NCBI RefSeq assembly: GCF_014489635.1
Contig: NZ_CP060828.1
Location: 1,302,001 to 1,366,000, forward strand
Direction: 5' to 3'
Source of the DNA: Streptomyces roseirectus
GTDB taxonomy: Bacteria; Actinomycetota; Actinomycetes; Streptomycetales; Streptomycetaceae
Length of the DNA: 64,000 nt
Below are positions 35,321-55,101 of this stretch, piece by piece. The position numbers were made by a program, and so were the translations under genes. Numbering within the stretch: the first letter of the stretch is position 1; each line of letters starts with the position of its first letter. The notes beneath the pieces were generated by a model, which did not search any database, was not told the origin of the DNA, and saw nothing but the letters and a program-made list of their open reading frames with translations.

Positions 35321-35396
35321 CACGGGGGAAGTCGCTTCCATATGCAGTCTTTCATGTGCGGTCATCTCCTTCACTTCGATCCGCCATTCCCCCGTG
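35321..35396 (+). promoter_or_regulatory. Inverted repeat in the SARP leader
   Basis: CACGGGGGAA at 35321-35330 pairs perfectly with TTCCCCCGTG at 35387-35396, 56 nt apart. In the predicted SARP mRNA leader this would form a long-range stem ending 44 nt before the start codon, with room for an internal structured loop. It may be a regulatory RNA element. Confidence 0.5.
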
Positions 35397-35440
35397 TCTC
35401 CTCGCGTTTTCGCGCAGCACACTCGGATGTTGGAGTGAGA

Positions 35441-36214
35441 ATGGAGATTCGCCTGCTGGGCTCGTTGGAGATGAGCGACGAGCATATTTCGCTGAACATT
35501 CCCGGGGAGAAGTTACGCGCCATCGTCGCGACTCTGGCCCTGACTCCCCGTCACCCCGTCTCCCGCAATTCCCTCGTCGACGAGCTCTGGGGAGAGAACC
35601 CACCCCGGCACGCCGAGAACTCGCTCCACGGGCACATCGCGCGGCTGCGCCGCATCATCGCGGCCCGCACCGGCACGGGCAGCCTCCGGGACCTGATCAC
35701 GACCTCGACCTTCGGCTACGCGCTCGCGGTGCCGGACCGCGCCGTCGACGCGCTGCACTTCTGCGACCTGGTCCGCAGGGCGGCGCTCCTCCAGGACTCG
35801 GCCCCCGAGGACGCCGTCCGGTTGCTCACCGAGGGGCTGGCGCTGTGGCGCGGCCCCGCGCTGCTCGACACCGGCCACGGCATGCTGTGCCGGATGGCCT
35901 CCACCCGCTTCACGGAGACCCGGCTGACGGCCTACGAGCAGCTTTTCGACGCCCAGTTCGCGCTGGGCAGGTACCGCGGCGCGGTCACCGAACTGGAGCA
36001 ACTGCACGCCCAGTACCCGTTGCGGGAACGCTTCTGCGAGCAGTTGATCACCGCGCTGTACCGTTCCGGCCGGCAGGCCGAAGCGCTCGACGCGTACCAC
36101 CGCACCAGGCAGCGCCTCTCCCAGGGCCTCGGCCTGGAACCGGGCCACGCCCTGCGCACCCGCTTCCAGCAGATCCTCCGCCAGGAACCCCTGACCGGAG
36201 CGGCCGGCTTCTGA
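35441..36214 (+). CDS. SARP family transcriptional activator
   Basis: This is a 257-residue Streptomyces antibiotic regulatory protein. The N-terminal OmpR-type winged helix (about 1-92: 'LRAIVATLALTPRHPVSRNSLVDELWGENPP') is followed by a bacterial transcriptional activation domain (about 95-245, 'LDAYHRTRQRLSQGLGLEPG'). It has no ATPase or sensor domain. Codon 25 (35513-35515) is TTA, so translation should depend on the rare leucyl-tRNA bldA and come on late. The ATG at 35441 has TTGGAG ahead. Two arrays of SARP-like heptamers, at 37481 and 53905, are its likely binding sites. Confidence 0.92.
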   Translation: MEIRLLGSLEMSDEHISLNIPGEKLRAIVATLALTPRHPVSRNSLVDELWGENPPRHAENSLHGHIARLRRIIAARTGTGSLRDLITTSTFGYALAVPDRAVDALHFCDLVRRAALLQDSAPEDAVRLLTEGLALWRGPALLDTGHGMLCRMASTRFTETRLTAYEQLFDAQFALGRYRGAVTELEQLHAQYPLRERFCEQLITALYRSGRQAEALDAYHRTRQRLSQGLGLEPGHALRTRFQQILRQEPLTGAAGF

Positions 36215-36386: not shown

Positions 36387-37385
36387 TCAGATCGACCTGG
36401 TCACCCGCAGAATCTGCCAGATCGCCCCGAACCGAGCCCGCCCGTGAAACGCCAGATACTCGGGCAGCACCAGCTGGGGCCCCCACTTCTCCTTGTACGC
36501 GAGCTGACTGGCCGCCGGATAGACCTTCTCCCCGTGCCCGGCGAGAAACCGCATGAACCGCGCCGTCACCGCACTCGCACCCCCCACCTCGACCGCCGGA
36601 TCGAGCCCCGTGAACGGCGTGAATCCAAAGTGCAGCCACTCGACCCCCTCCGCCCGGAACACCCCGATGGCGTGCGCGTTGACCGCCTCCATCACCCCCG
36701 GCGGCACCGCGCTGTCGCGTCGGCTGAGGTCGTGCAGCCACCCGGGCCGGGCCCCGTACGCGGGCGAATAGGAGATGTACGCGACGACGGCCCCCTCGAC
36801 GCGGCCGACGAACAGCCGCCGCTCCCCCTGCGCGGGCCCGCCGCACTGCCCGACAAGGAACTCGATCTCCTTGACGTGCCGGCCCTTGCCGCGCAGCCAG
36901 CGCCGGTCGAGCGCCGCGATCTCACCGGCGACGTCGGCGTAGGCGACCTCCTCGACCCGCAGCCCGCTGCGCCCCGCCCGGGAGATCTTGTTGCGCAGCT
37001 TCATGAACCGCGTGCCCTTCAGCGTGAACTCGGGCAGCCGCAGCGAGAACGACGACCCCACCTGGTTCACGGTGAATCCGCAGCGGGCGTAGAGCTCGGC
37101 GTCGGTGCGCTGGAGCTGGATCGCGCAGACCCTTTTCCGCGCCCCCCGCGCGAATTCCAGAAAGGCGCGCAGCACGTCCTCCTGTTCCTCCTCGGGACCG
37201 AAAGCCCCGCCGAACTGCACCAGATAACGGCCCGCTGTCCGATAGGCGACGAACCCTTCCGTGCCCGGCCGGGAGAAATACTCGGTCCCGGTGTTCAGCG
37301 CGAGGAAAGCGCTCGGATTGTCGGCGTGTTTCCGCAGCGACCGCGCGACGGAGTCGAAGGCCACCGAATCCTCAGTCGTGGACAT
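36387..37385 (-). CDS. DUF2156 aminoacyl-tRNA-transferase-type GNAT protein
   Basis: This is a 332-residue soluble protein matching the DUF2156 domain, the dual-GNAT fold that in MprF moves amino acids from aminoacyl-tRNA to lipids. Seen are 'FLALNTGTEYF', 'GFVAYRTAGRYLVQFGG', 'TLKGTRFMKLRNKISRAGRSGL' and 'GWLHDLSRRDSAVPPGVMEAVN'. No membrane part is present, so this is a free transferase. In the cluster it is the natural candidate for the VlmA-like step: coupling serine from seryl-tRNA to an alkylhydroxylamine (inference). The start is ATG at 37385 with AGGGGGACGAG upstream. It is divergent from the main operon. Confidence 0.85.
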   Translation of the reverse strand: MSTTEDSVAFDSVARSLRKHADNPSAFLALNTGTEYFSRPGTEGFVAYRTAGRYLVQFGGAFGPEEEQEDVLRAFLEFARGARKRVCAIQLQRTDAELYARCGFTVNQVGSSFSLRLPEFTLKGTRFMKLRNKISRAGRSGLRVEEVAYADVAGEIAALDRRWLRGKGRHVKEIEFLVGQCGGPAQGERRLFVGRVEGAVVAYISYSPAYGARPGWLHDLSRRDSAVPPGVMEAVNAHAIGVFRAEGVEWLHFGFTPFTGLDPAVEVGGASAVTARFMRFLAGHGEKVYPAASQLAYKEKWGPQLVLPEYLAFHGRARFGAIWQILRVTRSI

Positions 37386-37469
37386 CTCGTCCCCCTGTCG
37401 TCCGGCAGGGCACGGATTCACCCGCGCGCCCGTTTTCCGCAGATTCTCGGACGCCCGGCTTCGATATCC

Positions 37470-37509
37470 CTGAAACGGCCGTCTCAGTCCCGTCTCAGGG
37501 CCTTCTCAG
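37470..37509 (+). promoter_or_regulatory. Composite SARP-type operator, site 1 (main operon)
   Basis: GTCTCAG (37481-37487), GTCTCAG (37492-37498) and TTCTCAG (37503-37509) are three 7-bp direct repeats with 4-bp spacers, the spacing known for SARP sites. An inverted heptamer CTGAAAC lies 4 bp upstream (37470-37476). The site is followed by AAGATT (37520-37525), a plausible -10 element 10 bp past the last repeat. It precedes the aldehyde dehydrogenase gene by about 100 bp. Confidence 0.8.
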
Positions 37510-37602
37510 CCCTCGCTGGAAGATTACGCAGCGCAGCCGGAGCCGACATGCCGACTGCCCGGAATGCCGACTGCTCGGCACGCTGACGAAAGCGGGGGAC
37601 GT

Positions 37603-39291
37603 GTGAACGGCACGCGCAGGACGGGAGGTGCGCCGCCCGCCCAGGAGGAGGTCCGCCTCGCGCCGGGGACCCCGACGTATCTCTCCTACGTCGACGGCAA
37701 GAACATCCCGAGCACGGAGTGGATCTACGTCCTGGACGCGGCGGCGCTGCTCGACGACGCGTTCGCGAGTCTGACCCTGAAACGGAAGCTGGAGCGCGGC
37801 CGGTGGCCGGCGGACCGGGCGGCCGGGAGCACCCTGCCGGCCACGATCGTCGGCCGGGTCGCGAAGGCGGGCCGCGACACGGTCGTCCAGGCGCTGGAGG
37901 CCGCCGCGCGGGCCGGCCGGGTCTGGTCCGCGGTGCCGCTGGACGTCCGTCTCGACCAGCTCGGCACACTGCTGCGGGAGCGGCTGGCGGAGCGGGCCGG
38001 GGAGATCACGGACATCCTGGTGAAGGAGGGCCACCCGCTGGCGCTGGCCCGCTGGCAGGTCTCCGGCATGCTGGAGTGCTTCGGGCCGGAGTCGCTCGGC
38101 TTCTACCGCGCACAACTGCTCCAGGAGTTCCGGCACGGGGTCCGGGAGATCTCCGTGCGCCGGCAGCCCGACGGCGTCGTCTGTCTCAGCCCGCCGCAGA
38201 ACGCTCCGCTGTCGAGCGCGCTCCTCGGGGTGACCTCGCTGTTCGCGGGCAACACCCTGGTCGTGCGGGCCCCGCGCAGTGCGCCGCTCGGGGTGATGTA
38301 CGTGCTGCACGAGGTGGTCGTGCCGACGCTGGAGGAGGTCGGGGCGCCGCCCGGCACCCTCGGTGTGGTGTGCGGGGATCCGGCGCCGATGCTGAACGCC
38401 TGGCTGGACAGCCCGTACGTCGACGACGTCATGTACTTCGGCAGCAGCGAGAACGGCCTCAGGTTCCAGGAGCGCTGTGTCGCCGCCGGGAAGAAGCCGG
38501 TCCTCGAACTCGCCGGCAACGACGTGGTGGTGGTCTGGAAGGACGCCGACGTCGAGCTGGCCGCCGAAGCGCTCACCGAGAGCTTCTACGGCTCGGGCCA
38601 GCTGTGCATGATCCCCAACCAGGTGCTCGTCCACCCGGACGTCGCCGAGCCGCTGACCGCCGAACTCGCCCGCCAGAGCGCCCTGGTGAGGCCGGGGTAC
38701 GCCGGTGAGGAGGGCGTGCTGCTCACCCCGGTGCTGCGCAACGAGAAGTTCTTCTCGTGTCTCGCGGACGCGCTCGACCGGGGCGCGGAGCTGGTGTGCG
38801 GCGGCCACGCCATGCAGCTCGACGGGGTGCGGGACACCGGCGGCATCTTCCTCGAACCGACCGTCGTCGTGGTGCGCGGCCTCGACGGGGCGCGCGAGGT
38901 GCGGGCGGTGGCGCACGAGACGTTCTTCCCGCTGCTCCCGCTGATCGTCGCGGAGCGCTGCGACGGCGACGACGACGAGCTGCTGGAGCGGTTCATCGAC
39001 TGGGTCAACAGCAACGACTACGGGCTGCGCAACTCCCTGTGGACGGGCGACCGCGCGGTGATCGACCGGTTCACCGCCCGGGTCACCAAGGGCGGCCTGC
39101 TGAAGGTGAACGACTCGCACATCGGTTTCCTGCCCTACCTGCCCACGCACGGCGGCACGGGCCTGACCGGCGGCGTGTTCGGCGAGGCCAACTACCCGGC
39201 CCTGCGCACCTCCCACGTCCAGGGAGTCAGCGTCAGCGGCCGTCCGCTGCGCCCCCGCGAGGCCGTCTTCGGCACCGACCGCGCCCGCTGA
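37603..39291 (+). CDS. Aldehyde dehydrogenase / acyl-thioester reductase family protein
   Basis: This is a 562-residue ALDH-superfamily enzyme, longer than usual because of an N-terminal extension of about 70 residues. The catalytic Cys is in 'YGSGQLCMIPNQ' (about residue 335), and the general-base Glu in 'LELAGND' (about 302). As first gene of the biosynthetic operon it could reduce the acyl thioester on the ACP or CoA to an aldehyde, or oxidise it; supplying an aldehyde to the aminotransferase is the more sensible reading (inference). The start is GTG at 37603 with GGGGGA upstream. Confidence 0.85.
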   Translation: MNGTRRTGGAPPAQEEVRLAPGTPTYLSYVDGKNIPSTEWIYVLDAAALLDDAFASLTLKRKLERGRWPADRAAGSTLPATIVGRVAKAGRDTVVQALEAAARAGRVWSAVPLDVRLDQLGTLLRERLAERAGEITDILVKEGHPLALARWQVSGMLECFGPESLGFYRAQLLQEFRHGVREISVRRQPDGVVCLSPPQNAPLSSALLGVTSLFAGNTLVVRAPRSAPLGVMYVLHEVVVPTLEEVGAPPGTLGVVCGDPAPMLNAWLDSPYVDDVMYFGSSENGLRFQERCVAAGKKPVLELAGNDVVVVWKDADVELAAEALTESFYGSGQLCMIPNQVLVHPDVAEPLTAELARQSALVRPGYAGEEGVLLTPVLRNEKFFSCLADALDRGAELVCGGHAMQLDGVRDTGGIFLEPTVVVVRGLDGAREVRAVAHETFFPLLPLIVAERCDGDDDELLERFIDWVNSNDYGLRNSLWTGDRAVIDRFTARVTKGGLLKVNDSHIGFLPYLPTHGGTGLTGGVFGEANYPALRTSHVQGVSVSGRPLRPREAVFGTDRAR

Positions 39292-39344: not shown

Positions 39345-40481
39345 ATGCGTGCCCTGGACGCGGCCCGGGAGACCTGCGAGAGCTGTCTGCCCGGCCTGCT
39401 GAAGAAACTCGACGACATCCCGCTCGCCGACCTGGAGCGCCCCGAGAGCCCGGGGCTCGGCCACTTCCGGGCCGCCGGGGGCCCGGCGCTGGTGATCCCG
39501 AAGGAGTACCGGGGCATCGGCGCGACCCCGTTGCAGGCGCTCGCCGTCGTGCGGGCGATCGGCGCCGTGTCGCCGTCGCTCGCCGTCGCGACGACGATGC
39601 ACCACTTCTCCGTGGCCACCCTGTTCACCCTGGCCGACTCGATCAAGAGCAGCGGCATGGAGTGGGCGCTCCTCGAAGGGATCGCCGAGCAGAACCTGCT
39701 GGTCGCCTCCGGGTTCGCGGAGGGCAGGCCGGCGCAGGGCATCCTCGCGCCGACCATGCGGGCGACGGCCGTCGAGGGCGGCTACGTCGTCAACGGCGCG
39801 AAGAAGCCGTGCAGCCTCTCGCGGTCCATGGACCTGCTGACGGCGAGCGTCGCGCTGCCCGCGCCCGACGGGGGCGGGGACATGGCGGTGCTGCTGGTGC
39901 CGCGCGCCACCGAGGGCATCACCAGCCACCCGTTCTGGCGGAGTTGGGCGCTGGCGGGCGCGGAGAGCGACGAGGTGCGGCTGACGGACGTGTTCGTCGA
40001 CGAACAGCTGATCATGCGGACCGAGTTCGGGGCGGCCGGTGAGCTGGACCAGTTGCAGACCGTCGGGTTCATCTGGTTCGAACTGCTCATCTCCGCCTCC
40101 TACCTGGGGATGGTCTCGGCCCTGGTGGAGCGCGTGTACCGGGCGGGGCGCGGCGGCGACGCGGACCGGGCGGACCTGATCGCGCGGCTGGAGGGGGCGA
40201 ACCTGCTCCTCGAAGGCGTCGCCCGGATGCTGGCGGACGGCGAGCGCGACGACGAGGCGCTGGCGAAGACCCTGGTGGCGCGGTACGCGGTGCAGGACGC
40301 GCTCGGCGAGAGCGTGAACCGGGCCGTGGAGACGCTGGGCGGCATGGCGTTCATCGGCGCGTCCGACGTGGCGTATCTGGCGGCCGTCTCGCACGGCCTG
40401 ACCTTCCATCCGCCGTCCCGGGCGAGTTTCCGGGCCCCGTTCCTCGCGCACGTGGCGGGCGAGCCGCTGCGGCTGGCCTGA
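39345..40481 (+). CDS. Acyl-CoA-dehydrogenase-fold flavoenzyme (VlmH-like N-hydroxylase candidate)
   Basis: This is a 378-residue member of the acyl-CoA dehydrogenase superfamily. Seen are 'VIPKEYRGIGATPLQALAVVRAIG', 'VAGEPLRL' at the end and the 'GGYVVNGAKKPCSLSR' flavin region. With the flavin reductase three genes on, it resembles two-component flavin monooxygenases such as the isobutylamine N-hydroxylase VlmH of valanimycin. It may hydroxylate an alkylamine made by the next gene's aminotransferase. It could also be a true dehydrogenase; the sequence alone does not exclude this. ATG at 39345 after GAGGAAG. Confidence 0.82.
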   Translation: MRALDAARETCESCLPGLLKKLDDIPLADLERPESPGLGHFRAAGGPALVIPKEYRGIGATPLQALAVVRAIGAVSPSLAVATTMHHFSVATLFTLADSIKSSGMEWALLEGIAEQNLLVASGFAEGRPAQGILAPTMRATAVEGGYVVNGAKKPCSLSRSMDLLTASVALPAPDGGGDMAVLLVPRATEGITSHPFWRSWALAGAESDEVRLTDVFVDEQLIMRTEFGAAGELDQLQTVGFIWFELLISASYLGMVSALVERVYRAGRGGDADRADLIARLEGANLLLEGVARMLADGERDDEALAKTLVARYAVQDALGESVNRAVETLGGMAFIGASDVAYLAAVSHGLTFHPPSRASFRAPFLAHVAGEPLRLA

Positions 40482-40490
40482 GGAGGCGCC

Positions 40491-41765
40491 GTGACCGTGC
40501 CGGACGTCCTGCCCGACCGCCATGAGCTGGGCCGCCTCTACCGGGGCCGGCTCAGCAAGGGCCGCGCCACCCTCGGTGAGCTGTTCGGCGGCCATGTCGA
40601 GGTCGCCTCCGAGGGCGCCCACGTCTTCACCGCCGACGGCCGCAGGTTCCTCAACTGCGGCGGCTACGGCGTCTTCCTCACCGGGGCGCGCCACCCCGCC
40701 GTCGTGCGCCGGGTGGCGGCGCAGTTGCACGCCCACCCCGTCGCCACCCGTATCTTCCTGGAGCCGCAGGCCGCGCTGGCCGCCGACGCCCTGGTGTCCG
40801 TCGCGCCCGAGGGGCTGAGCCGGGTGCACTTCGCGGGGTCGGGCGCCGAGGCGGTGGAGACGGCCATCAAGCTGGCCCGTACCCGGGGCCGCACGCGGCT
40901 GGTCGCCACCGACGGCGGCTATCACGGCAAGACGATGGGCGCCCTGTCCCTCACCGGCAAGAGCCTCTTCCAGGACCCGTTCCGCCCCCTGCTGCCCGGC
41001 ACGGCGCACGTCCCCTACGGCGACGCCGGCGCCCTGCGGGACGTCCTCGCGCGGATCCCGGGCGAGGGCTGCGTGTTCGTGGAGCCGGTGCAGGGCGAGG
41101 CCGGCGTGGTGATCCCGCCGCCCGGCTACCTGACTCAAGTGGCGGCGCTGTGCCGGGAGTTCGGCGCCCTCCTGGTCCTGGACGAGATCCAGACGGGGCT
41201 CGGCCGGCTGGGCACCTGGTGGGGCGCGGACGCGGAGGGCGTCGTCCCGGACATGCTGCTCGTCGGCAAGGGGCTCAGCGGCGGGGTCGTCCCCGTGTCC
41301 GCGGTCGTCGCCACCCCGGAGACCTTCGCGGCCTTCGACCGGGACCCCTATCTGCACACCTCGACCTTCTCCGGCGCGCCCCTGGCCATGGCCGCCGCGC
41401 GCGGGGCGATCGAGGCGATCCGGGACGACGACCTCGTCGCCCGCGCGCGGACGCTCGGGGCGCGGCTGCTGGCCGACCTGCGGGCGATCGTCACCGGCCA
41501 CTTCGGCGGGGCGGTGCGCGAGGTGCGCGGGCGCGGGCTGATGCTCGGTGTGGAGTTCGCCGAGCCCGGCCCCGCCGGGGACCTGCTGATCGAGCTGATC
41601 CAGCACGGCGTCATCGCCAACCACTCCCTCAACTCCCATCTCGTCCTGCGGCTGACGCCGCCCGCCGTGCTCGACGACGCGGACGTGGACGTCCTCCGCA
41701 CGGCGATGGACCGCGCCTGCCGGATCCAGGCCGCCCGCTACACACCGACCCCTGGAGGTGTCTGA
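40491..41765 (+). CDS. Class III PLP aminotransferase
   Basis: This is a 424-residue class III (omega-type) aminotransferase. The PLP lysine is Lys260 in 'LLVGKGLSGG', the phosphate/ring regions are 'GSGAEAVETAIKLAR' and 'LVLDEIQTGLGR', and 'GGYHGKTMGALS' is present. It transfers an amino group to an aldehyde or ketone; here the likely product is a long-chain amine (inference). The start is GTG at 40491, nine bases after the previous stop. Translational coupling in the operon is likely. Confidence 0.9.
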   Translation: MTVPDVLPDRHELGRLYRGRLSKGRATLGELFGGHVEVASEGAHVFTADGRRFLNCGGYGVFLTGARHPAVVRRVAAQLHAHPVATRIFLEPQAALAADALVSVAPEGLSRVHFAGSGAEAVETAIKLARTRGRTRLVATDGGYHGKTMGALSLTGKSLFQDPFRPLLPGTAHVPYGDAGALRDVLARIPGEGCVFVEPVQGEAGVVIPPPGYLTQVAALCREFGALLVLDEIQTGLGRLGTWWGADAEGVVPDMLLVGKGLSGGVVPVSAVVATPETFAAFDRDPYLHTSTFSGAPLAMAAARGAIEAIRDDDLVARARTLGARLLADLRAIVTGHFGGAVREVRGRGLMLGVEFAEPGPAGDLLIELIQHGVIANHSLNSHLVLRLTPPAVLDDADVDVLRTAMDRACRIQAARYTPTPGGV

Positions 41766-41767
41766 CC

Positions 41768-42268
41768 ATGCGCAGCGCACAGGTCACGATCCGCGCGGTC
41801 GCCGTCGCCCCCGCCGACGCGTTCGACCGGGTGAAGGACTTCGCCGCCTATCCCGCGCTCTCCCCCGTCGTCCGGTCCGTACGGGTGACCCGGGCGGACG
41901 CGGGCACGGAGCACAGCGAGTGGGAGGTGTACTTCCGCAACGGCGTCCTGCGCTGGAGCGAGACCGACACCTTCGACCGCGCCGGCCTGACCATCGCCTT
42001 CGCGCAGGACGACGGCGACTTCGCCGAGTTCTCGGGCGTCTGGCGGATCCGCGGCGACGGCGAGGACAGCCTGATCGACTTCTTCACCGAGTTCGACTTC
42101 GGCATCCCGAGCCTGGCCGGGATCCTCGACCCGGTCGCCGAGCGCGTGTTCCGCGAGACGATCGGCCTGGTCGTCACGGGCCTGTTCGCGAAGGCCGAGA
42201 TCGTGGGCGACGAAGCGCTCGTGCGGGCCGTGGAGCTGGCCCGCGAGCGGACGGCGGGGGCGCGCTGA
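41768..42268 (+). CDS. SRPBCC family protein (1)
   Basis: This is a 166-residue START/SRPBCC helix-grip protein ('QVTIRAVAVAPADAFDRVKDFAAYPALSPVVRSVRVT'). These bind hydrophobic ligands in an open cavity and include cyclases, aromatases and carriers. No catalytic residues can be assigned. In the operon it might bind the alkyl chain. The ATG at 41768 has GGAGGTG ahead, and its stop overlaps the next start (TGATG). A second SRPBCC protein closes the operon. Confidence 0.82.
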   Translation: MRSAQVTIRAVAVAPADAFDRVKDFAAYPALSPVVRSVRVTRADAGTEHSEWEVYFRNGVLRWSETDTFDRAGLTIAFAQDDGDFAEFSGVWRIRGDGEDSLIDFFTEFDFGIPSLAGILDPVAERVFRETIGLVVTGLFAKAEIVGDEALVRAVELARERTAGAR

Positions 42269-42732
42269 TGGACGCCAGGAACACCTTCGACACGCCCGTC
42301 ACCCACCGGCTGATCCGCGCCGAGTACGCGGTGGGCCTCGCGGTCGCGGCCGGCTTCTTCCTCGCGCACCTCTCCGAGGTGCGGTGGCTGCCCGCCGTGG
42401 CCCTGTTCCTCTACATCGACCTGATCGGCTACATCCCGGGCGCGATCGCCTATCACCGCAGCCGGGACAAGAAGATCTCCAAGGTCTACTACGTCCTCTA
42501 CAACACGATGCACAGTCTGGCCACGCAGACGGTCGTCGCGCTCGTCTGGATCTGGCTGGCGGGCGCGGAGTGGGCGCTGCTGGCCCTGCCCCTCCACCTC
42601 TTCGGCGACCGGGCCCTGTTCGGCAACTTCCTCAAGCCGTTCGCCCTGGACTTCGAGCCGGTGGCGCACCCCGCGTTCCAGCGTTTCCGGTCCGAGTACG
42701 CCGGCCGGCTCGACGCGAGGCCGGCGCCGTGA
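42268..42732 (+). CDS. Small membrane protein (DUF4260-like)
   Basis: This is a 154-residue integral membrane protein with about four hydrophobic segments. It resembles the DUF4260 pattern: 'FLYIDLIGYIPGAIAYHR', then 'YYVLYNTMHSLATQTVV', 'LPLHLFGDRALFGNFLKPFALDF'. Function is unknown. Its tight coupling (TGATG before, GTGA after) shows that it belongs to the pathway, perhaps acting on the lipophilic intermediate in the membrane. Confidence 0.7.
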   Translation: MDARNTFDTPVTHRLIRAEYAVGLAVAAGFFLAHLSEVRWLPAVALFLYIDLIGYIPGAIAYHRSRDKKISKVYYVLYNTMHSLATQTVVALVWIWLAGAEWALLALPLHLFGDRALFGNFLKPFALDFEPVAHPAFQRFRSEYAGRLDARPAP

Positions 42733-43277
42733 CCGCCCCGATCGCCTCGTCCCCGGTCGCCCGCTGGCCGGAAGGCAGCCGCACCGCCTCCGCCCGTGCC
42801 ACCGCGCACCGGCTCGCGACCGGCGTGACCGTCCTGACGTGCGGCCGCGACGAGGGCACCCACGGGGTCACCGTCAGCACCCTGAGCCTCGCCTCGACGA
42901 GGCCGCCGATGGTGTCGGTGGCCCTGCGCCGGGGCAGCCGGGGCCTCGGCGCGCTGCTTGCGGCCGGCGCCTTCGCCGTCAACGTCCTGGGCAGCCGGCA
43001 GGACCCGCTGGCCCGGCACTTCGCCCGCGCCGACCGGGGTGACGGGCTCGCCCGGCCCGGCCGCGAGGTGTGGGCGGGGCACACCGCCGACGGGGTGCCG
43101 CTGCTGGGCGGCGCCGTCGGCTGGCTCCAGTGCCGGGTGACGCGCACCGTGCCGGCCGGCGACCACGAACTGGTCCTCGGCCTGGTGACCGGCGCCCGGC
43201 TCGGCACCGCCGAGAGCCCGCTGCTCACCTTCGCGAAAACCCTCCACCGGCTGCCCGACGACACGAACCGGAGCTGA
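42729..43277 (+). CDS. Flavin reductase, likely partner of the N-hydroxylase
   Basis: This is a 182-residue flavin-reductase-like protein. The N-terminal 'HRLATGVTVLTCGRDEGTHGVTVSTLSLASTRPPMVSVALR' is the family core, and 'RRGSRGLGALLAAGAFAVNVLG' follows. It would supply reduced flavin to a two-component monooxygenase, here most likely the acyl-CoA-dehydrogenase-like enzyme (VlmR/VlmH-type pairing). The start is GTG at 42729 overlapping the previous stop. Confidence 0.87.
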   Translation: MTAPIASSPVARWPEGSRTASARATAHRLATGVTVLTCGRDEGTHGVTVSTLSLASTRPPMVSVALRRGSRGLGALLAAGAFAVNVLGSRQDPLARHFARADRGDGLARPGREVWAGHTADGVPLLGGAVGWLQCRVTRTVPAGDHELVLGLVTGARLGTAESPLLTFAKTLHRLPDDTNRS

Positions 43278-43279
43278 CC

Positions 43280-44239
43280 ATGACCGACTCCACCGTCCCG
43301 CCCGAGGCCGACTGGGACCGCGCGCCGTCCCTGGTCGACGGCGCGGGCTCGCTCGAACTGACCGCCGCCGGCTGCGACCTGCGGTACTGGCTGCGCGCCG
43401 TCCCCCAGGGCACCCTGCGCGGCAAGGTCCTCGGCCACGACGAGGACGTCCGCCCCCACGAGGTGACCCGGCGTCCCGGGCCGCTGAACGACGCGCTCAC
43501 CCAGGAACTCGCGTTCCGCTCCGTCGCCGAGGACAAGGCGACCCGCGCGCTCGGGTACCTGGTGGCGCTCGCGCCCGACACCGCGACGCTGGAGTTCTAC
43601 ACGACCCAGCTGATGGACGAGGCCCGGCACGCGATGGTGTTCCGCCGCCACCTGCTGAGCCTGGGCGTCGCCGAGCACGACCTCTGCACAGCCGTCGACC
43701 GGCTCGCCGGCGCCGACCGGGACGCCGTCCTCGTCCCGCTGGAGAACCTGGGCCTGGACGTGCTGCGCGAGCGGCGGGACTTCATCGGCGGGGTGGTCGT
43801 GCTGACGATCCTCGTCGAGGGGGTCCTCGCGCCGGCCGCGCAGCTGTCCGAGCTGAAGTGGCGGGTGTTCGACCCGGCCGCCGCCGACGTCGAGCGGGGC
43901 GCCGGCATCGACGAGATCCGCCATCTCACCGTGGGCAGCTCCATCGCCCGCGAGCACCTGCTCGCCCGCCCCGAGGACCGGGAACGCCTCCTCGAACTGA
44001 TCACCCACGGCCGGGCGCTGTGGGAGAAGCTGCCCGTCACGGACATGGTGCTGCGCCGCGAGACCCTGTTCCAGCAGGGCCTGGACGCGCACCGCGACCT
44101 CGTGGGCGACCACGAGATCTGGCCCGGCCGCCGCCTCGCCGACACCACGGTCGAGGAACGGCTGGAGACCGCCCACGCCTGGGCCGAGTCGATGCAGCGC
44201 AAGCGGCTCGCGTACATGGGTCTGGAGGAGGCGATATGA
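43280..44239 (+). CDS. Ferritin-like diiron oxygenase (VlmB-like)
   Basis: This is a 319-residue protein with ferritin-like di-metal motifs. Glu76 or Glu84 (QELAFRSVAED), Glu114 and His117 (DEARH), Glu180 (LTILVEG), and Glu212 and His215 (DEIRH) fit the E...ExxH...E...ExxH pattern. Such enzymes (ribonucleotide-reductase-like R2, AurF-type) oxidise amines and form N-O or N-N bonds. In this cluster it is the natural candidate for hydrazine/azoxy formation, similar to VlmB as I recall it. ATG at 43280; ATGA overlap with the next gene. Confidence 0.85.
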   Translation: MTDSTVPPEADWDRAPSLVDGAGSLELTAAGCDLRYWLRAVPQGTLRGKVLGHDEDVRPHEVTRRPGPLNDALTQELAFRSVAEDKATRALGYLVALAPDTATLEFYTTQLMDEARHAMVFRRHLLSLGVAEHDLCTAVDRLAGADRDAVLVPLENLGLDVLRERRDFIGGVVVLTILVEGVLAPAAQLSELKWRVFDPAAADVERGAGIDEIRHLTVGSSIAREHLLARPEDRERLLELITHGRALWEKLPVTDMVLRRETLFQQGLDAHRDLVGDHEIWPGRRLADTTVEERLETAHAWAESMQRKRLAYMGLEEAI

Positions 44240-49163: not shown

Positions 49164-51505
49164 GACTCCCGGGGCAGCCGGCGGATACGTGCCGTGTGGC
49201 CGGGGAGGTGTTCCTCGGCGCGCATCCGGACGATCTCTCCCCACGGCACGGACCCGCTGAACACCTCCTCGCCCTTCTCGCCGACGAGGCGTACGGCGAC
49301 CGGGGTGGAGTGCCGCTCCTGGGGCGTGCGGGCGAGCAGGCCGACGAACTCGGCGGCGTTGCGGCGGACCAGGTCGACGAGGACGTCGTGGTCGGCGCGG
49401 GACGTCAGCTCCTCGATCGCCTTCGGGTCCATCGCGGGGCCGTTGTCCAGCCGGGGCGCGGTACCGGCGAGGATCTGCCGTGCCGTGGTGGCCAACAGGC
49501 GGTCGCTGAGGGCGATGTGGGCGAGGGCCCGGTCGATGCCGGGTTCGGCCGGCGAGGGCTCGCCCGGTGCGGTCTCGGCCGATGCGGGCTCGGCCGGCGA
49601 GGACTTGGACGGTTCGGCCTCGGCCAGTGCGGGCTCGACCAACGAGGGCTCGCCCAGTGCGGTCTCGGCCGATGCGGGCTCGGCCGGCGAGGACTTGGAC
49701 GGTTCGGCCTCGGCCGGTGCGGGTTCGGCCGGCCGGCTGTCGCGCGCGGCGGCGATGAGGGCCGCGTAGGCGTCCTCCAGGGGGGCGGTGTCCATGACGG
49801 GGCCTTTCCGGGCGGCTCGGGTGTCTCGCGCGGCTGCGGTGTCTCGGGCAGCCGGTGCGACCGCGGTGGCTGGGGTGACTGCGGTGCCTGGGATGCCTGG
49901 GGTGTCGTCCCCGGCGCCATGAGCGGCACGGGCGTCGGGCGCGGCGAGGGCGAGTTCCAGCAGGTGCCGGACCTCCCCGGGACCCAGCTGTTCGAGCCGG
50001 TCCACCAGATCGGCGGCGTACGGATCACCGCCGCACGCGAGGAACTTGGCGCGCGCGAGCGCCAGATGACCGGCCCCGTCCACGCCCCCCGCACCCCCCG
50101 CCGCCCCCACCGCGCCCCGCCTCTCCGCGCACACCTCACGCCCGTCCCGCAGCCGTACGGTCACCCGGGCGCCGAGTTCCTTGGTGGCCCACCGGAAATC
50201 GGCCTCCGGCTCCAGCCGGTCCGGCGGCAGACTGTCGGCGGCCCGCGCGTCGACAGCCCGTACCCACGCCTCGGCCCGCTCCCCCGCGCGCCGCAGCGCC
50301 TGCCCGAGCGGGGCGGTGGCGAGCAGAGCCCGGCGGCTGAACTCCGGGGCGTGCTCGGTGCGCACGCGTGCGGCCAGGGCCCAGCGGTCGGGCCGGTCGA
50401 CCGCCGGAGGCGCGAGGTCGGCGGGGAGCAGGGAGCCGGTGAGGAGGGCGGTGGCGACGTTGTAGGGGAGGGAGAAGTTGAGGGCGGCCACGCTGGAGCC
50501 GGGACCGATGCGGTGCCGGCGCGCGATGCGGTCGAGTCCGGCGGTGAAGATCGACCCCTCGACGACGACCTCGTCGATGTCCTCCACCCCGGCCCCCGCG
50601 AGCGCGTGGTGCAGTTCGGCCGCGCAGTCGACGGCGGCGCTGGTGTAGGCGCTGCCCGGGTGGACCTTGTAGGAGAAGGTCTCCGTGTGCCAGAGGGTGC
50701 CGAACCCGGCCAGCGCCTCTTCGGGCAGGGGGAGGTCGGCGAACCGGCTGAGGAACCCCTCCGGGTGTTCGAGGACGTCCTCGGGTCCGGTGAGTCCGCA
50801 CCGGGCCCCGTCGCAGGCGCTCAGTCCGATCAGCACCGGCGCCGCCGCGACCAGCAGTTTCGCGTCCGTGCTGAAGAACCCGCGCGAGAGGGTCCAGGTC
50901 GGTACGGAGAACGCCATGGCGAGCGCGTGCGTCCAGGTGCCGGCGTCCGCGTCCTCGGCGCGCAGCCGGCCGGCGACGGCGCCCGCGAGGTGGGTGTGGC
51001 CCGCCGTCTGGCCCCGGAAGGGGCCCAGTGTCGCGGCGGCGGTGATCCGGGCGGCGGTCTCGTTGGCGGCGAGGACGGACGTCAGCAGGCGCCGTCCGTC
51101 GAGGCCGAGGGGCCCGGCGTGGGCGAGCGGGACGTTGACCGTGGAGTGCGACAGGTGTCCGGCGTACGCGGTGTCGTCGAAGTCCAGGCAGACGGTCGCC
51201 GTGCACAGGGACCGCGCGGCGTGCTGCGGGTCGTCCTGGAGCGGGCCGCCGTAGGCCCGGACGATGCGGGCGCCGAGGGGGTGCGCGTATCCGGCGCGGG
51301 CGGCGCCGAGCTGGCTGAGGAGCTGGCTCTTGAGGTGGCCGACGACCCGCTCGGGGGCGTCGTCGAGGTCGAGCCGGGCGGCCCAGCGGGCGAGGCGACG
51401 CAGGATGCCGGGGTCGGCGGGCTGCGGCTCGGGCGCGCCAGGGTCGGTGGGCCGAGGCTCGGGCGCGCCGGGTCCGGTGGGCTGCGGCTCGGGTGTGCCG
51501 GGCAT
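49160..51505 (-). CDS. MmgE/PrpD family protein with repeat linker and extra C-terminal domain
   Basis: This is a 781-residue protein. After an N-terminal run of ten-residue PGAPEPQPTD repeats, residues about 35-500 form a MmgE/PrpD fold (2-methylcitrate-dehydratase type: 'SKLLVAAAPVLIGLSACDG', 'VVVEGSIFTAGLDRI', 'LNFSLPYNVATALLTG'). A long low-complexity linker with two 30-residue repeats follows, then a unique C-terminal domain (about 660-781). In valanimycin, the PrpD homolog VlmK with the kinase VlmJ dehydrates the azoxy hydrate; this is the likely parallel. ATGA overlaps with both neighbours. An internal ATG at 49795 with GGAAAGG upstream could yield a separate 211-residue protein. Confidence 0.8.
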   Translation of the reverse strand: MPGTPEPQPTGPGAPEPRPTDPGAPEPQPADPGILRRLARWAARLDLDDAPERVVGHLKSQLLSQLGAARAGYAHPLGARIVRAYGGPLQDDPQHAARSLCTATVCLDFDDTAYAGHLSHSTVNVPLAHAGPLGLDGRRLLTSVLAANETAARITAAATLGPFRGQTAGHTHLAGAVAGRLRAEDADAGTWTHALAMAFSVPTWTLSRGFFSTDAKLLVAAAPVLIGLSACDGARCGLTGPEDVLEHPEGFLSRFADLPLPEEALAGFGTLWHTETFSYKVHPGSAYTSAAVDCAAELHHALAGAGVEDIDEVVVEGSIFTAGLDRIARRHRIGPGSSVAALNFSLPYNVATALLTGSLLPADLAPPAVDRPDRWALAARVRTEHAPEFSRRALLATAPLGQALRRAGERAEAWVRAVDARAADSLPPDRLEPEADFRWATKELGARVTVRLRDGREVCAERRGAVGAAGGAGGVDGAGHLALARAKFLACGGDPYAADLVDRLEQLGPGEVRHLLELALAAPDARAAHGAGDDTPGIPGTAVTPATAVAPAARDTAAARDTRAARKGPVMDTAPLEDAYAALIAAARDSRPAEPAPAEAEPSKSSPAEPASAETALGEPSLVEPALAEAEPSKSSPAEPASAETAPGEPSPAEPGIDRALAHIALSDRLLATTARQILAGTAPRLDNGPAMDPKAIEELTSRADHDVLVDLVRRNAAEFVGLLARTPQERHSTPVAVRLVGEKGEEVFSGSVPWGEIVRMRAEEHLPGHTARIRRLPRES
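49561..49740 (-). repeat. Two 90-bp tandem repeats in the PrpD gene
   Basis: Positions 49561-49650 and 49651-49740 are near-identical 90-bp units. They encode two copies of a 30-residue Ala/Glu/Pro/Ser linker and keep the frame. They probably vary in copy number between strains. Confidence 0.85.
51421..51505 (-). repeat. 30-bp repeats at the PrpD N-terminus
   Basis: Three copies of a 30-bp unit (51421-51450, 51451-51480 and a partial 51481-51505) encode the PGAPEPQPTD-like start of the PrpD protein. They are in frame and give a flexible leader. Confidence 0.8.
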
Positions 51506-53897: not shown

Positions 53898-53933
53898 GAC
53901 AGCCGTCTCAGCGCCGTCTCAGCGGGATGTCAG
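53894..53933 (+). promoter_or_regulatory. Composite SARP-type operator, site 2 (tRNA-like RNA/kinase)
   Basis: GTCTCAG (53905-53911), GTCTCAG (53916-53922) and ATGTCAG (53927-53933) have 4-bp spacers, with an inverted CTGAGAC at 53894-53900, exactly the same layout as site 1. AAGAGT (53944-53949) lies at the same distance as the AAGATT of site 1 and is the probable -10. The predicted transcript begins just before the tRNA-like RNA at 53995. Confidence 0.8.
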
Positions 53934-53994: not shown

Positions 53995-54081
53995 GGAGAG
54001 GTACCCGAAGCGGCCCAACGGGGTACCGAGGCGACTCGGTTCGGGTCTCGGCCCGCGCAGGTTCGAATCCTGCCCTCTCCG
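53995..54081 (+). tRNA. Serine-type tRNA-like RNA with no anticodon
   Basis: This is an 87-nt RNA with class II tRNA architecture. The acceptor stem is GGAGAGG/CCTCTCC (7 bp), followed by discriminator G (as in tRNA-Ser) and no encoded CCA. The T-arm is perfect: GCAGG-TTCGAAT-CCTGC. T8 is present, and the D-arm is CCC...GGG with the conserved GG in its loop. The variable arm is long (CGGG/CCCG, 6-nt loop), as in serine tRNAs. The anticodon arm is replaced by a 6-bp hairpin ACCGAG/CTCGGT with a GCGA tetraloop (GNRA): no T33 and no anticodon. It lies 48 nt before the kinase gene and after SARP site 2. It should be serylatable (SerRS reads the variable arm, not the anticodon) but unable to decode; this is inference. 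Confidence 0.75.
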
Positions 54082-54129: not shown

Positions 54130-55101
54130 ATGAGCGACCCGTTCACCTCGGCCCTGGTGATAGCCAACCCCGCCTCGGGCACCTACCCGCCCGGGGCGGC
54201 CGAGACGGTACGCCGCCGGCTCGCGGACGCGGGACTCGCCGCCGCCCTCGCCCTCACCGAGCACCCCGGCCACGCCCGCGCACTGGCCGCCGGCGCGCTG
54301 ACCCCCGGCGGGCCCGACCTGGTGGTCGCGGTCGGGGGCGACGGAACGGCCCACGAGGTGGCCTGCGGCCTGCTGACGGACGCCGACACCGGCACGACGG
54401 CCGGCAGCGGCCCCGGCCCCCTCCCTCACTCCGGCCGGTCCCCCGCCCTGCTGACCCTCCCCACCGGTACCGGCAACTCCTTCCACCGCGAGATCTGGGC
54501 GGACCTCCCCTGGCGCGCCTCCCTCGAACGCGCCGCGACGGCACCGCACGTGCGCGCGATCGACCTGGCGCGGGTCGCGGAGAACGGCGTGCCGGCCGTG
54601 CTGGGCGCCTCCACCGGCGTCGTCGCCCAGTCCCTCGTCACCGCCCGGGGCATCGCCGAGGCCGGCCGCGACCGGTACGAGAAGGCCGTCGCCGCGGCCC
54701 TGCACGCGTTCACGCCGTACCCGGGCCGGGTGCTGGTCGACGGCGAGGTCGTGCAGCAGGGCCCGACCGTCTTCGTCGACGTCGGCGGCGGCCGGTACCG
54801 GGGCGGCCGGTTCCGGCTGCTGCCGCACTCCGTCATGGACGACGGCCTGCTCGACGTCTGCGTCGTCGGCACCGCCCTGCCCCTGCGCGACCTGCCGGCG
54901 CTGGCCCGCGACGGCTCCCACGTCGGCCGGGAGGGCGTCGTCTACGCGCGCGGGCGCAGCGTGGTCGTGGAGCGCACCGACGGCCGGCCGCTCGTCTTCG
55001 AGTGCGACGGCGACGTCCTGGCGCCCGCGCGCGAGCGGTTCACGCTGGACGTGCTGCCGGGGGCGCTGCGGGTCGTGGGCCCGCCGCCGGGCGGACACTG
55101 A
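54130..55101 (+). CDS. Diacylglycerol-kinase-like enzyme (VlmJ-like)
   Basis: This is a 323-residue lipid kinase of the DAGK catalytic family. The ATP motif is 'VVAVGGDGTAHEVACGL', with 'NPASGTYPPG' at the N-terminus and 'LTLPTGTGNSFHREI' next. In valanimycin the homolog VlmJ phosphorylates the hydroxyl of the hydrate before VlmK removes it; a similar role fits here with the PrpD gene. It is probably co-transcribed with the tRNA-like RNA from SARP site 2. A generic membrane lipid kinase is the alternative. Confidence 0.85.
   Translation: MSDPFTSALVIANPASGTYPPGAAETVRRRLADAGLAAALALTEHPGHARALAAGALTPGGPDLVVAVGGDGTAHEVACGLLTDADTGTTAGSGPGPLPHSGRSPALLTLPTGTGNSFHREIWADLPWRASLERAATAPHVRAIDLARVAENGVPAVLGASTGVVAQSLVTARGIAEAGRDRYEKAVAAALHAFTPYPGRVLVDGEVVQQGPTVFVDVGGGRYRGGRFRLLPHSVMDDGLLDVCVVGTALPLRDLPALARDGSHVGREGVVYARGRSVVVERTDGRPLVFECDGDVLAPARERFTLDVLPGALRVVGPPPGGH

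Follow-up and report, generated by a model that had tools for sequence, protein, structure and literature searches.

How can a serine-type tRNA that offers no anticodon be of use to a cell, and why is it encoded within a biosynthetic gene cluster? This question is raised by an 87-nt RNA located at positions 53995 to 54081 (plus strand) of the window, i.e., the whole 64-kb stretch of DNA analyzed here, and identified on the basis of ARAGORN, Rfam, covariation among relatives and its predicted fold. The initial annotation had proposed a dedicated serine-carrying RNA for a DUF2156 transferase of the same cluster, that is, a private seryl carrier.

The RNA and its gene neighborhood

The acceptor stem of the RNA (53995-54001 paired with 54074-54080, plus strand; GGAGAGG/CCUCUCC) comprises 7 bp and is followed by G73 at 54081, while the T-arm reads GCAGG-UUCGAAU-CCUGC. 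Together with a 4-bp D-stem and a variable-arm stem, the predicted fold is a class-II tRNA cloverleaf with exactly this structure. At the anticodon position, the hairpin ACCGAG-GCGA-CUCGGU (54025-54040, plus strand), a 6-bp stem capped by a GNRA tetraloop, stands in place of the 7-nt loop with U33 and a triplet that a decoding tRNA would possess, and ARAGORN reports a tRNA-??? with a two-letter "anticodon". SerRS recognizes G73 and a long variable arm. Both are present, which assigns the RNA to the tRNA-Ser type, and the four canonical tRNA-Ser encoded elsewhere in the genome all end with G73, whereas the tRNA genes for Leu (five) and Tyr (one) that were read in the same genome have A73 at their end. 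Owing to the 7-bp acceptor stem and the 5-bp T-stem, the RNA belongs neither to the allo-tRNAs nor to tRNA-Sec. With the Rfam tRNA model (RF00005), the region scanned alone scores 31.4 bits, above the gathering cut-off of 29, and thus qualifies as tRNA; a default scan of the whole 64-kb window at gathering threshold listed nothing. The RNA ranks last by score among the 69 tRNA matches of its genome, and its single-sequence stability is unremarkable (z -1.38, with 20 of 200 shuffles folding equally well).

Directly upstream, a SARP-type array of three TCAG repeats at 11-bp spacing (53908-53933, plus strand) ends 61 bp before the RNA, and the next gene after it (54130-55101, plus strand) encodes a VlmJ-like kinase of the YegS/DAGK type (PF19279/PF00781). 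Hence, the description in the initial annotation of an 87-nt RNA with a 7-bp acceptor stem, G73, D-arm, variable arm and T-arm, with a 6-bp stem and GCGA loop instead of a readable triplet, and with a SARP site and a kinase gene as neighbors is borne out by sequence, fold and ARAGORN, and the covariance-model check it had suggested was passed by the region scanned alone.

The proposed user of the seryl-RNA is a VlmA-type aminoacyl-tRNA-dependent transferase (36387-37421, minus strand; PF09924, 220 bits), classified as such by its PF09924 domain and the proximity of VlmH-, VlmR- and VlmB-type genes. A DUF2156 transferase had already been recognized in the cluster, whereas the end previously given for it, 37385, has to be corrected as the ORF is slightly longer. 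Encoded around it on the plus strand are a SARP-type regulator with BTAD and Trans_reg_C domains (35342-36214), an aldehyde dehydrogenase family protein (ALDH, 37564-39291), an acyl-CoA-dehydrogenase-like flavoprotein that is VlmH-like by position (39345-40481; 52% identity to a pSA3239 protein, its Pfam match being slightly under the cut-off), a class-III aminotransferase (40491-41765), a small protein (42268-42672) for which the pSA3239 cluster encodes a hypothetical counterpart with 62% identity, a VlmR-like flavin reductase (42789-43277) and a VlmB-like protein (43295-44239; 52% identity to the pSA3239 protein annotated as VlmB-like). VlmK-like MmgE/PrpD domains are found on the minus strand (domain matches at 50327-51400). 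The window also holds ketosynthases and an ACP. As the gene families match those given in the accessible text of PMC9379638, from which the VlmJ/VlmK family pairing is taken as well, the cluster is regarded as being of the aliphatic-azoxy type.

In the valanimycin system, as far as covered by the available parts of the publications, VlmA transfers serine from seryl-tRNA to a hydroxylamine (PMC12945691, PMC4052509), specifically isobutylhydroxylamine, alongside the seryl-tRNA synthetase VlmL and the SARP VlmI. Like this system, the window has a VlmA-type transferase, a flavoprotein and a flavin reductase, VlmB-like and VlmJ/VlmK-like proteins and a SARP, while a cluster SerRS as in valanimycin biosynthesis is found in relatives such as pSA3239 but not in the window cluster. 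A cluster tRNA does not figure in the valanimycin descriptions in the accessible text of PMC9379638, PMC12945691 and PMC4052509, the last of which states that it is unknown how seryl-tRNA is diverted into valanimycin.

Conservation and covariation of the RNA family

Among 392 genomes of the same genus, the RNA is present in 51, own genome included, with BLAST and a covariance model giving identical lists. The model and the MAFFT pairing alignment are based on 48 distinct relatives out of 55 copies, and the model scores family members at 71-99 bits and the own canonical tRNA-Ser at 46-54 bits. In a class-level sample of 345 genomes, four possess the RNA, namely the own genome, two more of the same genus and one of another family. 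A pattern scan of named contigs gave at least 120 stretches, and the 80 matches listed are mostly from Streptomyces, but also include Kitasatospora, Streptacidiphilus, Embleya, Salinispora, Micromonospora, Actinokineospora, Saccharothrix and a Streptosporangiaceae MAG. Overall, 291 copies in 239 partly overlapping loci correspond to 190 distinct RNAs (84 were found in loci of sampled genomes and 130 in contigs with a name, with an overlap of 24). Judged by these sequence comparisons, the RNA at 53995-54081 is a member of a widespread actinobacterial family.

Across the 48 distinct relatives, the structure described above is paired in 94.3% of the alignment cells, as compared to 38-59% in controls with slid partners, and changes on both sides of a pair occur in 82 cells versus 26.9 in shuffles. 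The variable-arm stem is paired in 97.9% of the cells. Acceptor stem, G73 and T-arm are near-invariant among the 190 distinct RNAs, with G73 in all of them, a constancy that is partly due to the search patterns and the selection they imply. The result for the anticodon arm is not imposed in this way. Here, all seven pairs of the helix vary, six of them with changes on both sides, and 79.5% of the cells are paired; the roughly 20% unpaired helix cells in the MAFFT alignment count against the RNA being a private carrier. In addition, the helix varies in length among family members. Taking the constant acceptor and T-arms together with the free anticodon arm, the half directed towards SerRS, CCA addition and processing is kept, while the half directed towards the codon is given up.

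The conservation and compensatory changes in relatives which the initial annotation had asked for are thus found, and decay of the tRNA gene, which it had argued against, is not seen in relatives, where the stems are intact. That the RNA is a decayed tRNA-Ser pseudogene residing in the cluster by chance might be suspected from its bottom rank among the tRNA scores of the genome and from the triplet missing in the ARAGORN assignment. Nevertheless, this has a practically negligible probability in view of the both-sided changes in six of seven anticodon-arm pairs, of the unbroken other stems, of the occurrence in 51 genomes, with tandem copies in several relatives, and of its own promoter array and lasting linkage to VlmA (see below).

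Would the odd anticodon arm rather serve translation, by a programmed misreading that places serine at non-serine codons as for allo-tRNAs? Running ARAGORN on the 190 RNAs, each flanked by artificial A runs and with CCA added, resulted in a triplet anticodon for 94, belonging to many isotypes, and in no triplet for the other 96, the RNA at 53995-54081 among them. Allo-tRNAs likewise combine a serine-type body with a varied anticodon region, and the tested ones put serine into protein; their acceptor domain is 8/4 or 9/3, according to the accessible text of PMC7609411, whereas that of the RNA described here is 7/5. Moreover, the supposed anticodon varies among relatives, and a 7-nt loop is predicted for three of the 190 distinct RNAs, none of these three having U33, although the same method yields a 7-nt loop for three of the four own canonical tRNA-Ser. 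A decoding role might also be suspected from Streptomyces SPC6, for which a tRNA-Asp-AUC with an odd anticodon stem has been reported as constitutive and as decoding GAU (PMC9262613, available in part). As four of the 190 family members are called Asp(atc) by ARAGORN (e.g., in loci L068, L057 and L295), this tRNA could be related to them, a kinship that is only conjectural. Bases 32-33 of the SPC6 tRNA, known from its description, match none of the three Asp(atc) arms compared by eye. Its membership in the family, if real, would argue against a role entirely outside decoding, and the confidence in a private carrier is very slightly reduced on account of this tRNA. Altogether, a misreading tRNA is considered very improbable.

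Linkage to VlmA, promoter arrays and a second SerRS

A VlmA homologue is encoded in 82 of the 392 same-genus genomes, and these comprise all 51 genomes with the RNA, which is thus found in none of the 310 VlmA-minus genomes. Similarly, all four RNA genomes of the class-level sample are among the eight of 345 with VlmA. The two genes lie within 35 kb of each other (start to start) in 43 of the 51 genomes and within 1.5 kb in 24, while in the remaining eight the VlmA contig is without RNA. In the window, the distance is 17.6 kb, which counts against the private-carrier interpretation. A tree of VlmA sequences with 84 rows places all 51 rows from RNA genomes together in a single clade of 54 (support 100/99); the other 30 rows, without RNA, make up a second VlmA clade (loci L159-L190), and the RNA label changes only three times on the tree versus 26.2 times when shuffled. 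Three VlmA in the RNA clade come from genomes in which the RNA was not detected, again counting against a private carrier.

Two possible explanations for the RNA-minus VlmA loci, 32 loci from 31 genomes, were not supported. A search for a more diverged RNA hidden there gave a best model match of 21.9 bits with an E-value of 0.074, i.e., at chance level, and no relative of the RNA. As for another cluster tRNA, only two ordinary tRNAs occur in these loci.

Besides the array upstream of the RNA, the window contains exactly one more site with three TCAG repeats at 11-bp spacing (0.00 such sites expected in 64 kb), and this is located at 37484-37509 (plus strand) in the divergent promoter region between the VlmA gene on the minus and the ALDH gene on the plus strand. 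At least two repeats precede the RNA in 163 of 176 upstream regions and three in 119, against 0.2 and 0.0 in shuffles that preserve base composition only; as the genomes are related, such raw upstream counts and the Fisher p-values overstate the evidence. The 176 were taken from 206 distinct upstream regions after dropping the 30 behind another copy, and RNAs with less than 130 nt upstream were skipped. As a control, two such repeats were found in none of 30 canonical tRNA upstream regions of the own genome, these being the best-scoring 30 of the 69 tRNA matches. For the transferase gene, at least two TCAG repeats precede VlmA in 47 of 49 cases in RNA genomes (two of the 51 with short contigs left out) versus two of 33 VlmA genes without RNA, the latter comprising the 32 loci of the 31 RNA-minus genomes and an additional VlmA gene from one of the RNA genomes. 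With tandem repeats at 11-bp spacing upstream and a SARP gene in the cluster, the RNA has the hallmarks of a SARP-regulated gene, and it shares with the VlmA gene a SARP-type promoter array to which the regulator is predicted to bind. The arrays extend beyond the VlmA and RNA genes, as 141 double and 49 triple ones were counted in a total of 794 kb from 40 cluster loci of relatives. Arrays at further cluster genes are as expected for a regulon; nevertheless, they count against a carrier reserved for VlmA.

Tandem arrays of two to four RNA copies adjoin VlmA in several relatives, and six genomes (G003, G033, G282, G327, G365 and G388; loci L199-L222) have 8-13 copies each. Of the 24 copies read in these multi-copy genomes, two adjoin VlmA, and their upstream sequences are alike. 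Among ten genes beside ten such copies, a Pfam search of the ten proteins did not reveal a common theme. The simplest reading of so many copies is gene dosage, although those away from VlmA and beside unrelated genes are not needed by a model of one cluster and speak against the private carrier. With up to 13 copies per genome, and with further GNAT-type genes in some clusters, for example, in that of pSA3239, the RNA might also be a seryl carrier for another cluster transferase or for several pathways, its linkage to VlmA being indirect. This is quite unlikely, however, given a VlmA-type gene in 51 of 51 RNA genomes and the promoter array that both genes have in common.

A further association concerns the charging enzyme. 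A strongly diverged second SerRS is encoded in 26 of the 51 RNA genomes versus none of 29 RNA-minus VlmA genomes, and in 23 of the 26 it resides on the VlmA contig at a distance of 5.4-27.8 kb. This search covered 80 of the 82 VlmA genomes, leaving out the two least complete ones, both without RNA. Second SerRS hits of the ordinary type or with intermediate scores, found in RNA genomes as well as in four of the 29 RNA-minus ones, were not counted as diverged. Among the 26 diverged enzymes, two are under the Pfam cut-off and 17 were confirmed as full-length by tblastn. Five were tested with the serS equivalog model (cut-off 302), namely four of the 26 and one from an S. tendae contig, and all of them passed with 392-423 bits. 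The diverged enzymes share 55-92% identity with a reference sequence from within their group, compared to 36-38% with SerRS of the ordinary type. On pSA3239 of S. lavendulae CCM 3239, genes for DUF2156, VlmB-like protein and SerRS are found together with the RNA within one region, where the RNA occupies positions 84265-84349 and serS positions 98440-99717. In the genome of the window, a second serS near VlmA was not found, the single PF02403 match being located outside the window at 5.01 Mb. With only one SerRS, the housekeeping enzyme would therefore have to charge the RNA in this strain, and the absence of a private SerRS from the own cluster counts against the private-carrier interpretation. 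In genome G373, a SerRS gene lies only about 0.26 kb from the RNA (G373:C38:196 and 455); unlike the diverged cluster SerRS, this one is of the ordinary type.

The second SerRS is also relevant for the idea that the RNA does not carry serine at all, but is a regulatory RNA or an uncharged tRNA mimic tuning the cluster or the SerRS. The copies next to unrelated genes away from VlmA would fit such a role, as would the precedent of tRNA-Other from Bacillus cereus, likewise a tRNA-like RNA outside translation, which has been proposed to form part of a larger regulatory RNA (PMC3399842, accessible in part). According to the same source, tRNA-Other differs from the RNA described here in having a Trp anticodon and in being poorly charged. 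What is conserved here, however, is the half needed for charging (acceptor, G73 and T-arm) and not a segment for pairing with a target. In addition, a bona fide type of SerRS is encoded alongside in 26 of 51 genomes and the link to an enzyme predicted to use seryl-tRNA is constant, which leaves a regulatory role with a slim chance.

Proposed function and relation to known systems

The evidence is best explained if the RNA is a seryl carrier private to an azoxy-type pathway and used by the VlmA-type transferase, a reading to which a probability of roughly 0.84 is assigned on comparative sequence evidence. The dedicated serine-carrying RNA suggested by the initial annotation for the DUF2156 transferase thereby gains support from the covariation, the co-occurrence with VlmA in 51 of 51 genomes and the shared array, and also from the diverged SerRS in 26 of these, 23 of them with the enzyme on the VlmA contig. 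In this pathway, a seryl-tRNA synthetase, either housekeeping or private, would charge the anticodon-free RNA, whose use by the ribosome would not be expected. The VlmA-type transferase of the cluster would then pass the seryl group of the RNA to a hydroxylamine, leading to an azoxy-type product. Under SARP control, the RNA would be made together with VlmA, and the likely gain is a serine supply for the pathway that is turned on along with the transferase and avoids competition with translation. We infer that the RNA is transcribed, provided with CCA, serylated and rejected by the ribosome, that VlmA uses it and that the SARP binds. More generally, many actinomycetes are likely to maintain a private serine circuit for VlmA, consisting of a tRNA without anticodon, often its own SerRS and several SARP-switched copies.

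If correct, this would represent a natural, evolved orthogonal pair of tRNA and synthetase outside the genetic code, and a separate tRNA that is not read by the ribosome would be a testable answer to how seryl-tRNA is diverted. The RNAs would form a tRNA class defined by the loss of decoding, to which a tRNA finder assigns many isotypes or none. They could supply natural orthogonal SerRS/tRNA pairs and serve as markers for azoxy-type clusters. In the open-access literature searched, a scope outside of which most subscription papers and bioRxiv fall, the available texts gave no description of an anticodon-free tRNA of such a pathway, and for this reason the family is rated as a new kind whose function is still predicted.

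Several elements of this proposal have precedents. Natural-product enzymes depending on aminoacyl-tRNA are already known (PMC12945691, available in part), as are tRNAs outside translation and pairs of synthetase and tRNA, judging from the accessible accounts of tRNA-Other, ProRSx/tRNA-ProA and allo-tRNA. Streptomyces ProRSx and tRNA-ProA likewise combine a duplicated synthetase with its own variant tRNA; according to the part of PMC9437257 available, tRNA-ProA bears an Ala anticodon and mistranslates alanine codons, whereas no anticodon can be read in the RNA family described here, and its association is with a small-molecule pathway.

In staphylococci, a non-proteinogenic tRNA-Gly for cell-wall synthesis is an isoacceptor reserved for non-ribosomal transfer by Fem-type enzymes; unlike the RNA described here, it retains a normal anticodon arm. 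Bacterial tRNA-Sec has an acceptor domain of the 8/5 type, as compared to 7/5 in the present RNA. A tRNA-like match of 99 nt (G000:C1:8280520-8280618) with an Rfam score of 48.9 bits, a long anticodon arm and no ARAGORN call was additionally observed, and is possibly a tRNA-Sec or another variant.
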